Of a DNA stretch of 64,000 nt, positions 34,167 to 41,873 are shown piece after piece. The position numbers and the translations under genes were made by a program. Source of the stretch: Leifsonia sp. Root4 (GTDB lineage: Bacteria; Actinomycetota; Actinomycetes; Actinomycetales; Microbacteriaceae); the NCBI RefSeq assembly GCF_001425085.1, contig NZ_LMDN01000001.1, forward strand, positions 404,206-468,205, read 5' to 3'. Each line of letters starts with the position of its first letter. The first letter of the stretch is position 1. Below the pieces are notes generated by a model. That model was not told the origin of the DNA, ran no database searches, and saw only the letters and a program-made list of their open reading frames with translations.

Positions 34167-34209
34167 CCCCCGAGCCTATTGCGATTGCCGCCGAGAGCGG
34201 TGCCGTCCG

Positions 34210-34259
34210 CTCAAGCCAGCGTGCAGAGAGAGGGCCGTGCATATGCACGCCGGCTTGAG
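34210..34259. repeat. Inverted repeat at the edge of the D block
   Basis: CTCAAGCCAGCGTGCA and TGCACGCCGGCTTGAG are inverted copies with a single mismatch, separated by ~18 bp. Confidence 0.7.
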
Positions 34260-34430
34260 GGAGCAGCCGAGGAACGAGTTCGCCCCCGAAGCCCTGAGCG
34301 GGTCACCGGATTGGGTCGCCCTGAAGGTCGCGGCCGCAGTGTCGGCGGATCCGCTCGGGGCTTCGCGTGCGTCGCTGCTCCTTCGTCGCGGCGCCGCTCG
34401 CTCGAGCCATCGTGCAGAGTGCCGCCGCAC
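34252..34430. repeat. Element D, copy 1 (long imperfect palindrome)
   Basis: From GGCTTGAGGGAGC (34252) to GCTCGCTCGAGCC (34408) the sequence is an imperfect palindrome centred on GCGGCCGC (34330-34337): CGAAGCCCTGAGCG is mirrored by CGCTCGGGGCTTCG, and GAGCAGCCGAGGAACGAG by a degenerate CTGCTCCTTCGTCG. A shared tail ATCGTGCAGAGTGCCGCCGCA follows. Confidence 0.8.
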
Positions 34431-34456
34431 AGACTTAGTCGACGCTCACGCACGCT

Positions 34457-34635
34457 GGCTTGAGGGAGCAGCCGAGGAACGAGGCCGCCCCCGAAGCCCT
34501 GAGCGTGTCACCGCATCGGGTCGCCCTGAAGGTCGCGGCCGCAGTGTCGGCGGATCCGCTCGGGGCTTCGCGTGCGTCGCTGCTCCTTCGTCGCGGCGCC
34601 ACTCGCTCGAGCCATCGTGCAGAGTGCCGCCGCAA
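34457..34635. repeat. Element D, copy 2
   Basis: Direct repeat of copy 1 at a 205-bp period, differing at only a handful of bases, including the tail. A third fragment (GGCTTGAGGGAGC...CGAAGCCCTGAGCG) lies at about 34732-34769. Confidence 0.8.
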
Positions 34636-34793
34636 GCACAGTCGACGTACATATGCACGCGCACATGCACGCCGCAGGCTCAGTCTCGTGAGTCCCCGCG
34701 CCGCGGCTTCGGTCGACGTGCATATTCACGCTGGCTTGAGGGAGCGCCAGCGACCGAAGCCCTGAGCGTCTGACCGGATCGGTCAGGTCGTCG

Positions 34794-38691: not shown

Positions 38692-39182
38692 TCCGTCGGC
38701 TGCTCCGGCGCTTCGCGCTCGGCGTCGGAGCCGGGATCCAGTTCGGCCTCGATGTCGCTCAGCAGCGCATGGAAGCCGTAGGGCGCGTCGGCGAGCACCT
38801 TCCGCCCGGCGATCGGCCCTGCCCAGTGCCAGCTCTGCGCGACGTTGACGATCTCGTATTCGAGCCGGGTTCCGGATGCCGCGGCGCCGGCCGCGGGACC
38901 AGCCGCGGCGTCATGGTCTGCCGGCTCCGCCATCACCCGGTACTCCCCGCGATACCACCAGCCGCCCTGCTGCGCGATCTCGCGCGCGACCGCATCGACC
39001 GCGACGCCCGGTGCGCCCTGCATCCGCTGACGCAGTGCGGCGAAGACGCTGGCCGGATCGGCGTCGAGGTGCCCGGCGAAGGAACGCAACACGGTGTGCC
39101 GCTCGGGGCGGGTCGACGGAGCGGGCTGCGCGGGGTTGGGGTGCGCAGGGTCGGGGCGCGTTGGGGAGGACTCGGAGGGCAT
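38688..39182 (-). CDS. Hypothetical protein, next gene downstream of the retron RT
   Basis: 164 residues. Pro/Ser-rich N terminus (~1-27) and an Ala/Gly linker (about 88-102) around a mixed domain with several tryptophans (GGWWYRGEYRV, AQSWHWAGPIAGR). I do not recognise it; the WYRGEYRV strand pattern faintly recalls SRPBCC lipid-binding folds. Same strand as the reverse transcriptase and 128 bp past it, so it is the only positional candidate for a retron accessory protein, but it also looks like an ordinary housekeeping hypothetical. Convergent overlap (4 bp) with the ABC membrane gene. Confidence 0.65.
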   Translation of the reverse strand: MPSESSPTRPDPAHPNPAQPAPSTRPERHTVLRSFAGHLDADPASVFAALRQRMQGAPGVAVDAVAREIAQQGGWWYRGEYRVMAEPADHDAAAGPAAGAAASGTRLEYEIVNVAQSWHWAGPIAGRKVLADAPYGFHALLSDIEAELDPGSDAEREAPEQPTD

Positions 39183-39310
39183 CCCTCGATCCTAGGTTCT
39201 GCGCGGCCGGTCGGAGAGCGCGGCCGGCGTGGGAGCGCGGCCAAGCAGGTCAGCGGCCTGCGTGGCCAAGAACCGCCGAGCACCGAGCGCGGCGAGCGCC
39301 GGACGCCGCT

Positions 39311-40669
39311 TCACCAGGCGATGCGCTCGAAGTCCCGCCGCAGCCGCGCTGCGCGCGCCGGATTGAGACTCTCGACCCAGTTCAGCCGCCCCTCCAGATG
39401 CGCCCGGAAGTCGGGGTGCCCGGCACGGTTCTGGCTCTCCGGCCCGTGCACGGCGCAATTGTGCAGGATGGCCTTCAGCTGATCCACGTCGCGGCGCGCC
39501 AGGTTGAGCCGGTCGTTCACGACCACCCCGGTGACGCTCTGCCGCTCACCGGCCCGGCGCACCCGGGTCTTGCGTTCATTGAGTTCGTGCCCCTCCGCGG
39601 CCACGATGCGCGCGACGCCGCGCACGAATGCGTCGCTCCGCCGGGAGAGCTCGGCTCCGCCGCTGAAACTCAGGTCGTCGGCGTAGCGCGTGTAGCGGGC
39701 GCCGGCGGCATCCGACCAGCCGCTGAGCCGCGCATCGAGGCGGCGCACCGCGAGATTCGCCAGCATCGGAGAGCTCGGCGCACCCTGCGGCAGGTGCGGC
39801 CGGGCGAGCGCCTGCCGGAGGGCGAAGCGCTCCTCGGGGCTTCCACCCGGCGGCATGCCGGCCAACACCGCGGGCGGCACGGCGTGTGTGCAGAGCGCCG
39901 TCACGCGGTGGGCGACGACTTCGGGCAGCCCCGCCCGGCGCAGCACCGCGTAGATCTGCCTGGCGGAAACCCTGCTGAAGAAGCTGACGAGGTCGAGGGA
40001 GATCACGACGGCGCTGCCCAGGTGCGCCTCCGCACCGCTGATCACCCCACGCCCCGGCATGAAGCCGTGCGCCGCGTCGTGCGCCGGCAGCACACCGATC
40101 ACCGTGTCGAGCAGGGTGCGCTGCGCGCGGCGCATGCGCTGCTCGGGAACCTCGAGCAGCCGCGGTGTGCGCCCCGGCCGAGTGCGCCACTCGTGCCGGT
40201 AGTGCTGCAGCCGCTCCGGCGCGCGGCGATTCCAGCCCCGGGCGTCGGCGAACCACTCGAGTTCGCCGATGTCCAGACCGAGGAGCGCGGAGAGGTCGGC
40301 GAGGGTGTCGAGGCGCGGCACCGGCAGGGTGCCCGGCCGGGCGGATGCCGGCGTCACCGGGTAGTGGCGGATCGGAATCGGCGCACCGCGCTCGACGGCG
40401 CGTTCGACGGCGTCGCCGAATGCGACGGTCCGCGCGACCACGACGGCCAGCTCGCGCGGGGAATCGAGCGGAGCCCGGTGGTAGACGGCAAGCACCTCGT
40501 CGACGAGTCCGGGCACCCAGCGGCGCCGCGCGCCGAGCACGTCGCTCGCGGCCGCGATCAGCGAGCGCCGCTCCCAGTGCTCGGCCGCGAGCAGCCCGTA
40601 GCCGATGGCGCGGGCGAGCGCCTCGACACTCGGATGCGGGCTCCGCCGTTTCGCGGCATCCGCCGTCAC
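39311..40669 (-). CDS. Retron-type reverse transcriptase
   Basis: 452 residues from GTG 40669, 23 nt past the a2 repeat of the ncRNA; the longer open frame (to 40852) would run through the ncRNA and is rejected. Residues 1-~165 form an N-terminal region not seen in short retron RTs. RT motifs follow: HGFMPGR (201-207), GAEAH at the NAxxH position (212-216), first Asp in SLDLVSFF (D226), LPQGAPSSP (293-301), catalytic YADD (329-332) within YTRYADDLSF, and the retron VTG motif in QSVTGVVVN (379-381). C-terminal thumb ends LNPARAARLRRDFERIAW. No intron maturase or CRISPR domains. Closest in my memory to Mx162-type myxobacterial retron RTs. It should extend cDNA from a 2'-OH of the ncRNA to give msDNA. 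Confidence 0.92.
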   Translation of the reverse strand: MTADAAKRRSPHPSVEALARAIGYGLLAAEHWERRSLIAAASDVLGARRRWVPGLVDEVLAVYHRAPLDSPRELAVVVARTVAFGDAVERAVERGAPIPIRHYPVTPASARPGTLPVPRLDTLADLSALLGLDIGELEWFADARGWNRRAPERLQHYRHEWRTRPGRTPRLLEVPEQRMRRAQRTLLDTVIGVLPAHDAAHGFMPGRGVISGAEAHLGSAVVISLDLVSFFSRVSARQIYAVLRRAGLPEVVAHRVTALCTHAVPPAVLAGMPPGGSPEERFALRQALARPHLPQGAPSSPMLANLAVRRLDARLSGWSDAAGARYTRYADDLSFSGGAELSRRSDAFVRGVARIVAAEGHELNERKTRVRRAGERQSVTGVVVNDRLNLARRDVDQLKAILHNCAVHGPESQNRAGHPDFRAHLEGRLNWVESLNPARAARLRRDFERIAW

Positions 40670-40692
40670 AGGCGGCTCGACAGAAGAAGGGC

Positions 40693-40855
40693 GCGACAGC
40701 GTGCGGACGACTCGTCGATCGGTGTCGGCACGGAGCTGCGCGGAGCGCAGCGTGGTGCCGACGGTGTTTGTCTCATCTCGGTCTGCGTGCCCCGGGGTAG
40801 CCCCGGAGAGGGAGGAACAGCTCGTGCACCACCCACCTCGTCCGCACGCCATCGC
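40693..40855 (-). ncRNA. Retron msr-msd non-coding RNA
   Basis: On the minus strand: a1 GCGTGCGGACGA (40849-40838) is perfectly complementary to a2 TCGTCCGCACGC (40710-40699), and the stem can be extended outward by GCGA/TCGC past a 2x2 loop. A G (40837) follows a1 directly, the place of the branching guanosine. msr part: hairpin CCGGGG-CTA-CCCCGG (40806-40792). msd part: GTCGGCAC (40762-40755), 3x3 internal loop, GCTGCGC-TCC-GCGCAGC, closing GTGCCGAC (40731-40724). A possible -10 TAGGGT (40869-40864) sits ~8 nt before the a1 stem. The order a1-msr-msd-a2-RT is that of known retrons. Confidence 0.88.
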
Positions 40856-40959
40856 ATGGCGTCACCCTAGCAATGGCCTGTGACATCGCCGCCGGCGGCT
40901 CGCGAGCGGCCCCACGATTCGGCTGCCCGCGCAGCGGGCATCGGGTCTAGCCTGAAACC

Positions 40960-41784: not shown

Positions 41785-41803
41785 CCCCGCCCGCACGTTC
41801 CGT

Positions 41804-41860
41804 TGAGAGCGGTCAAATGGCCGTTGTGAGCGCCACAAAGCGGCCATTTGACCGCTCTCA
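41804..41860. terminator. Bidirectional terminator hairpin
   Basis: Perfect 20-bp arms TGAGAGCGGTCAAATGGCCG (41804-41823) and their inverse (41841-41860), with an inner TTGTG-AGCGC-CACAA stem. It lies between the convergent SDR and GNAT genes, 20 bp and 13 bp from their stops. No T run, and unusually long and perfect for a terminator. Confidence 0.65.
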
Positions 41861-41873
41861 GTGGATTGCGCGG

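Follow-up and report, generated by a model that had tools for sequence, protein, structure and literature searches.

The window, a stretch of 64,000 nucleotides, harbors a locus that is in all likelihood a retron, that is, one that makes msDNA. Our computations establish a two-part locus composed of a reverse transcriptase (RT) and a structured RNA, a conserved architecture for that RNA, a discrete RT clade, co-inheritance of the two parts, purifying selection in relatives, and presence or absence of the whole at a syntenic position. The initial annotation had proposed a retron here, and the RT clade, the conserved RNA pairing and the RNA-RT co-inheritance strongly support that proposal. It had further called the retron apparently undescribed. 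This was an overstatement, given that the RT clade is represented in PADLOC, as RT_other and RT_outgroup (the latter labelled retron), and that a 2019 review (PMC6868368) mentions putative actinobacterial retrons. The locus is thus very probably a genuine retron, and it belongs to a catalogued but little-studied RT clade in which no adjacent partner gene could be recognised. We do not present the RNA as previously unreported; it was compared with Rfam, while PADLOC provides msr-msd covariance models of its own on its web server (PMC9252829). The features that make the family worth study are the lack of a detected linked effector, the N-terminal domain of the RT, and an RNA gene that can be flipped.

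Anatomy and conservation of the RNA

The putative retron ncRNA (msr-msd; 163 nt, 70% G+C) extends from a1 to a2 at 40693-40855 on the minus strand, upstream of the RT. Its ends hold a perfect 12-bp inverted repeat, with a1 = GCGTGCGGACGA at 40849-40838 and a2 = TCGTCCGCACGC at 40710-40699. On folding, this closing stem grows with G-U pairs to 18 bp, joining the a1 strand (40838-40855, minus) to the a2 strand (40693-40710, minus). The first base past a1, G40837 on the minus strand, is the presumed priming (branch) G, placed as in known retrons (PMC6868368, PMC8989520). It is followed on the same strand by msr stem-loop 1 (40811-40833), which is variable in sequence, by the near-invariant msr stem-loop 2 (40790-40808), of the form CUCCGGGG-nna-CCCCGGGG, and by the msd hairpin (40724-40762), the predicted part for reverse transcription, in which both the outer 8 bp and the 7 bp of the tip fold. 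The 12-bp repeat, the G directly after a1, an msr hairpin and an msd hairpin whose arms measure 8 and 7 bp had all been described in the initial annotation; re-checking the letters and folding the RNA reproduced each of them. It had also considered the chance of complementarity at the expected place to be small, and a perfect repeat of at least 12 bp between the outer 30-mers of 163-nt stretches, taken alone, was found at 5 of 19,873 random places in this window. The folding energy of the RNA has a z-score of -4.0, with none of 200 shuffles equally good. The DNA strand complementary to the msd has a z-score of -2.2, and 5 of 200 shuffles did as well, only a moderate excess over chance.

Homologues of the RNA adjoin the RT in several actinobacterial families and on one Burkholderia replicon. 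Upstream of the homologous RTs, a1 and a2 differ in sequence but keep their pairing, and are usually spaced 127 nt apart. We aligned 47 rows (A1) from 46 of 55 distinct RT loci; L006 was entered twice, leaving 45 distinct rows. Omitted were L063, L065 and L067 (gappy), L025, L059, L017, L056, L069 (truncated RT) and L070; another five loci beyond the 55 had been missed by the RT pattern (L010, L055, L066, L068, L071). Among the 40 pairs predicted in A1, 29 show compensatory change on both sides. Paired cells amount to 94.8%, against 75.6% after shuffling, and covariation reaches a score of 0.512, compared with 0.154 in shuffled alignments and 0.076-0.113 when the partners are slid. Because the slide control preserves relatedness, the covariation is not explained by shared ancestry.

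The signal is spread over most of the structure. In the a1/a2 stem, 14 of 16 modelled pairs have changed on both sides and 93.9% of cells are paired; in msr stem-loop 1 these values are 5 of 5 and 88.4%. Nine of the 11 modelled pairs in the msd hairpin have changed on both sides (6 of 7 in the outer helix, 3 of 4 in the tip). Thus, the a1/a2 complementarity and the msd hairpin first noticed in the window are present in its homologues, with heavy compensatory change. Stem-loop 2 yields almost no covariation evidence because it is near-invariant: 99.7% of cells are paired, and 5 of 8 pairs never vary. Such conservation suggests a binding site for protein. The G after a1 is invariant at its column across the 47 rows (46 loci), as is a G-T-C at the edge of a2. 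In one row, L032, the alignment begins 5 bases further in than the placement made by the covariance model, and a1 is probably misplaced there by a few bases.

The covariance model, R1, scores the window RNA at 155 bits, the sequence itself being part of the model. Strong matches occur in 26 of the 32 sources scanned, some of which overlap and some of which lie within the model. R1 recovers loci omitted from A1 (L063, L065 and L067 at 63-76 bits, L025, and L059 as L107) and four of the five missed by the RT pattern (L010, L055, L066, L068). In wider lineages it also finds the RNA beside RTs outside the model, in Williamsia (62 bits) and on a Burkholderia cenocepacia replicon (51 bits). No strong match was seen in the remaining six sources: L056, L070 and L071 fall outside the RT clade in our tree, L011 and L012 are absent from the tree, and the L017 contig ends at the RT. 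In Rfam 15, the window RNA has no match at the gathering score, and only chance-level matches at E up to 10.

The reverse transcriptase and its N-terminal domain

The RT gene lies at 39311-40669 on the minus strand and encodes 452 amino acids from a proposed GTG start. A 513-aa open frame reads through the RNA gene; judging from where the alignment of homologues begins, the start is most likely the GTG at 40669 and not a codon inside the RNA. The YADD and VTG motifs noted previously were located at residues 329-332 (39674-39685, minus strand) and 379-381 (39527-39535, minus strand), the former being the catalytic motif and the latter that of the retron "Y" region as defined in PMC4244168. The NAXXH motif of region X appears as the variant GAEAH at residues 212-216, with N replaced by G; H216 is invariant in alignment A2. 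Variants of these motifs are usual, since, among retron RTs, 59% had an identifiable NAXXH and 47% a VTG (PMC4244168).

The window RT is the only RVT_1 match in the genome. Among PADLOC profiles, it matches RT_other (PDLC02949) at 577 bits, RT_outgroup (PDLC03740) at 548 bits and RT_XIII (PDLC02956) at 279 bits, and the first two matches span nearly the whole protein, N-terminal part included. All 43 of 43 aligned family members match RT_other and RT_outgroup, and other retron RT profiles match more weakly. None of the NCBIfam retron models reaches its own cut-off for the window RT (best retron_St85_RT, 151 of 235 bits). Two non-retron profiles, group II maturase (42.6 bits) and Drt2 (32.4 bits, cut-off 390), are both far below cut-off. 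The nearest solved folds are the retron RTs Ec86, Eco7 and Ec67, with Foldseek E values down to 7e-19. In a maximum-likelihood tree, the family groups into a single clade of 37 rows (support 100/99), separate from the group II RTs and the references for I-C, III-A, XI, II-A and V. This tree holds ten reference RTs, labelled from PADLOC or from record annotation, with neither type XIII nor DRT among them, and several reference branches are long, making the deeper order unsure. By PADLOC, PDB, Foldseek and the tree, then, the RT groups with retron RTs and not with those of group II introns, in agreement with its first reading. Further, dN/dS is 0.10-0.20 in 7 close pairs of relatives, which shows that the RT protein is under selection.

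Ahead of the RT core, AlphaFold2 models show a five-helix domain at residues 15-94 (40388-40627, minus strand); mean pLDDT is 91.2 for the whole RT and 89.1 for residues 1-105 modelled alone. This domain has no fold match in the PDB (best Foldseek E 2.7) and no match in Pfam, where RVT_1 is the only family found in more than one of the 43 members. W32 is its sole invariant residue; L22, L27, L37, P67, R72 and L74 are nearly so. With one invariant and few near-invariant residues, the domain has no catalytic-looking residue set, and it resembles a binding surface more than an enzyme. It may contain an effector of some kind.

Distribution, gene order and chromosomal setting

Protein searches found the RT in 11 of 99 relatives (E up to 0.001) and in 48 of 398 family and 16 of 394 class genomes (E up to 1e-30), the source genome being counted; the weaker matches include RTs that belong to other clades in the tree (L070, L071). 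Relatives in named records come from Microbacterium, Glaciihabitans, Agreia, Frigoribacterium, Rathayibacter, Curtobacterium, Naasia, Arthrobacter and Williamsia and, more distantly, Ideonella. Loci from the family of the window coincide with named loci of Glaciihabitans, Agreia, Rathayibacter and Frigoribacterium, which identifies this family as Microbacteriaceae. The RNA follows the RT closely. R1 detects it in 46 of the 398 family genomes, all of them among the 48 with the RT, and the two exceptions (G116 and G182) have distant RTs, at 29% and 33% identity. No RNA match was obtained in the 350 family genomes lacking the RT, in a scan whose stricter filters may lose weak matches. Many of the 46 RNA-positive genomes fed R1, so that matches in them are expected; G140, G147, G250, G254 and G381 did not. 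In G140 (C1:167969-169290) the RT match lies in two frames with an internal TGA, as would arise from gene decay or a sequencing error, and the RNA is kept. Searching plasmid and phage records by tblastn gave matches in 252 plasmid and 14 phage records; at least 80% of the query was covered in only 3 plasmid and no phage records, and carriage by phages or plasmids was therefore rejected. The best plasmid match, on a 1.1-Mb Burkholderia cenocepacia replicon (L112 5820-7323, 41.7% identity), has its own copy of the RNA. The presence of both RT and RNA on this replicon indicates that the family crosses phyla.

Retrons are usually described as one polycistronic cassette on a single strand (PMC6868368, Figure 1 legend). 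Where RNA and RT share a contig (44 of the 46 genomes), the RNA is always on the 5' side of the RT, on the same strand in 38 genomes, as in the window, and on the opposite strand in 6. Rathayibacter departs from this arrangement. There, the RT is present in 12 of 15 genomes and the RNA in the same 12; in 10 of these 12, with strands compared by eye, the RNA gene is oriented away from the RT, and the polycistronic description does not fit loci in which the RNA lies opposite the RT strand. Flipped RNAs are found at L024 1294-1455, L057 5794-5955, L007 1286-1447, L036 1278-1439 (-) and L041 2852-3013 (+), each opposite to its RT.

A comparison of loci points to a promoter belonging to the RNA itself, with the putative -10 element TAGGGT at 40864-40869 (minus strand) in the window. 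In 41 of 49 loci, the pattern TANNNT lies 29-33 nt ahead of the a1/G boundary, the exceptions being L006, L008, L032, L040, L058, L063, L065 and L067. At the best single offset it occurs in 21 loci, against at most 3 at any offset in 200 letter shuffles. Neither a sigma-70 consensus promoter nor an intrinsic terminator was found at the retron locus. In six flipped Rathayibacter loci, two of which (L057 and L168) look like one genome, the palindrome CAGCCTAGGCTG sits between RNA and RT, 5-7 bases past the aligned end of a1, and supplies a -10 element in either direction. L019 and L167, the loci of the two Rathayibacter genomes with both genes on one strand, lack it. The inversion in 10 of 12 genomes and the two-sided CAGCCTAGGCTG raise the possibility that the RNA is an independent transcription unit.

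The entire retron is a presence/absence cassette of about 1.7 kb (39215-40939) when compared by blastn with four congeners. Both RT and RNA are absent from all four, and the flanking genes are shared; homology ends at 39214 (G003) or 39111-39123 (the remaining three) and picks up again at 40940-40944. About 240 bp of different DNA fill the slot in G003; in G001, G002 and G004 (L154, L155, L156) the same pair of flanking genes encloses an unrelated open frame of 100-101 codons. With shared flanks, no retron and other contents, we view the locus as a cassette in a variable slot, which may be a small hotspot. The retron may have been gained here or lost from the congeners.

To our knowledge, all typed retrons carry an effector gene or a fused effector domain, and all retron mechanisms studied use an effector. 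We searched for one by calling neighbouring proteins with a simple composition score and clustering them. No gene recurs within 7 kb of the RT beyond lineage synteny or common families, among 57 loci examined and 52 counted. Five loci were omitted from these counts as duplicates, including L043, though its twin L020 is not in the set; L056, from outside the clade, was included, some contigs end near the RT, and closely related genera weigh more. Neighbour families seen in 5-8 loci were rejected as effectors on account of changing distance, often changing strand, or synteny confined to one genus. In the window, 10 neighbours were scanned and no defence gene was found except for weak, generic ATPase matches of an ABC transporter; the window is thus not a defence island. 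Retrons without clear proximal effectors have been noted in a review (PMC8867640).

Two other features of the window lie outside the retron. At 41787-41873 is a near-palindromic, dispersed, REP-like element with 38-nt arms; a search with this region gave 28 matches in the source genome and 43 in congener G002, mostly of this element and with many counted on both strands. At 34197-34782, between two genes, is a 185-nt direct duplication (96% identical, spacing 205) accompanied by further related copies of 29-32 nt.

Mechanism, alternatives and relation to known systems

Priming at the G, msDNA synthesis and termination can be sketched by analogy with known retrons. A short RNA would start from the -10 element at 40869, and a1 would pair with a2. 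The RT would recognise the msr part, namely the near-invariant stem-loop 2 and the a1/a2 stem, and would use the 2'-OH of G40837 as primer. Copying would begin at G40711, the base before a2, and run back through the msd hairpin, with host RNase H removing the template as in other retrons (PMC6868368, PMC8989520). The product would be branched, with RNA joined to a DNA hairpin of roughly 50-70 nt, a length that fits the anatomy. The particle of RT, RNA and msDNA would most likely act as a sensor in phage defence. As no linked effector gene was found, its output could go by way of either a protein whose gene lies elsewhere or the RT's own five-helix domain. Defence and the output step are the least certain part of this scheme, and we give them about an even chance.

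Several results weaken the retron reading: the lack of a conserved neighbour among the loci counted, the failure to reach any NCBIfam cut-off, the modest z-score of the msd DNA, and the context of the priming G. In the window this context is GAGG, outside those listed for validated retrons in PMC6868368 (TAGC, CAGA, CAGC, GAGC and ACGC), a difference that counts against a retron. One alternative is that the repeats arose by chance in GC-rich DNA, where inverted repeats are common, upstream of an unrelated or decayed RT. The covariation and the RNA-RT co-occurrence refute it, and dN/dS well under 1 in relatives and the rarity of the repeat at random places also oppose it; we accord it next to no probability. 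Another possibility is a defence system like DRT2 or DRT9, in which the effector is the cDNA itself or some protein or polymer derived from it, and the retron-like RNA is only a scaffold for the template. Two-part systems of this kind exist (PMC12039810, PMC12489045), and an RT and an ncRNA with no linked effector are what we found. However, the RT falls among retron RTs in a tree that includes no DRT sequence, the Drt2 profile is far from its cut-off, and the RNA has the a1/a2 stem, invariant G and msd hairpin of a retron. These observations make a DRT-like system improbable.

If the locus is a retron, its function and its effector can each be read in more than one way. A role in the host other than defence, for example in DNA repair or stress, would suit both the setting of the window outside a defence island and the rather steady occurrence in Rathayibacter. 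Nonetheless, the patchy distribution across the family and the absence from all four other congeners at the syntenic slot are usual for accessory defence genes, and we regard such a role as unlikely, if well above the two alternatives just described. The effector could also be unlinked, either encoded elsewhere or a housekeeping protein of the host that the msDNA particle guards, with the retron otherwise an ordinary tripartite one apart from gene order. The lack of any neighbour recurring beyond lineage synteny or common families, the use of an effector by the mechanisms studied, and an N-terminal domain without a catalytic-looking residue set all favor this reading; no test, though, points to any particular protein. 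We hold an unlinked effector to be a substantial possibility that falls somewhat short of even. A further proposal, which we advance tentatively and rate a little lower, is that this is a retron family complete with two genes. The five-helix domain of the RT would then replace the effector or its docking site, and the RNA, as an independent transcription unit, need not be in the RT operon.

In the retrons studied so far, the msDNA particle holds an effector in check. Here, a clade thinly spread through Actinomycetota has kept RNA and RT together under purifying selection with no effector detected beside them, which raises the question of what its msDNA controls. Whether the two need to share a transcript is put to a natural test by the flipped arrangement in Rathayibacter. 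The aligned RNA family and its covariance model ease the finding of such loci in an under-sampled phylum, and actinobacterial RT-RNA pairs could serve for the production of single-stranded DNA in high-GC hosts.

Among known systems, the window RT is a member of PADLOC's RT_other/RT_outgroup, and nothing that we tested separates it from them; neither an effector nor a mechanism is named in those entries. Type XIII is the next best profile, and it too is long before the RT core, with the match starting at its position 109. At 279 bits, however, its score is about half that of RT_other, and the first 115 residues of the window RT are unmatched. Mx162, Mx65, Sa163 and Ne144 are type XIII retrons, and the partner of this type is a SWIM-domain protein, whereas no conserved neighbour gene was found for the window family. 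An extended N-terminus has been reported for these myxobacterial RTs (PMC6868368). With the tripartite retrons Ec86, Ec67, Ec78/Eco7 and Eco8, the window retron shares the RT core fold, the a1/a2 stem and the layout of the priming G; unlike them, its RT has an additional five-helix N-terminal domain. Those four carry an effector gene or a fused domain, and the window family differs from the tripartite defence retrons (types I-XIII) in that neither was found linked to it. DRT2 and DRT9 likewise consist of two parts, an RT and a structured RNA. The RNA of the window instead follows the retron plan.
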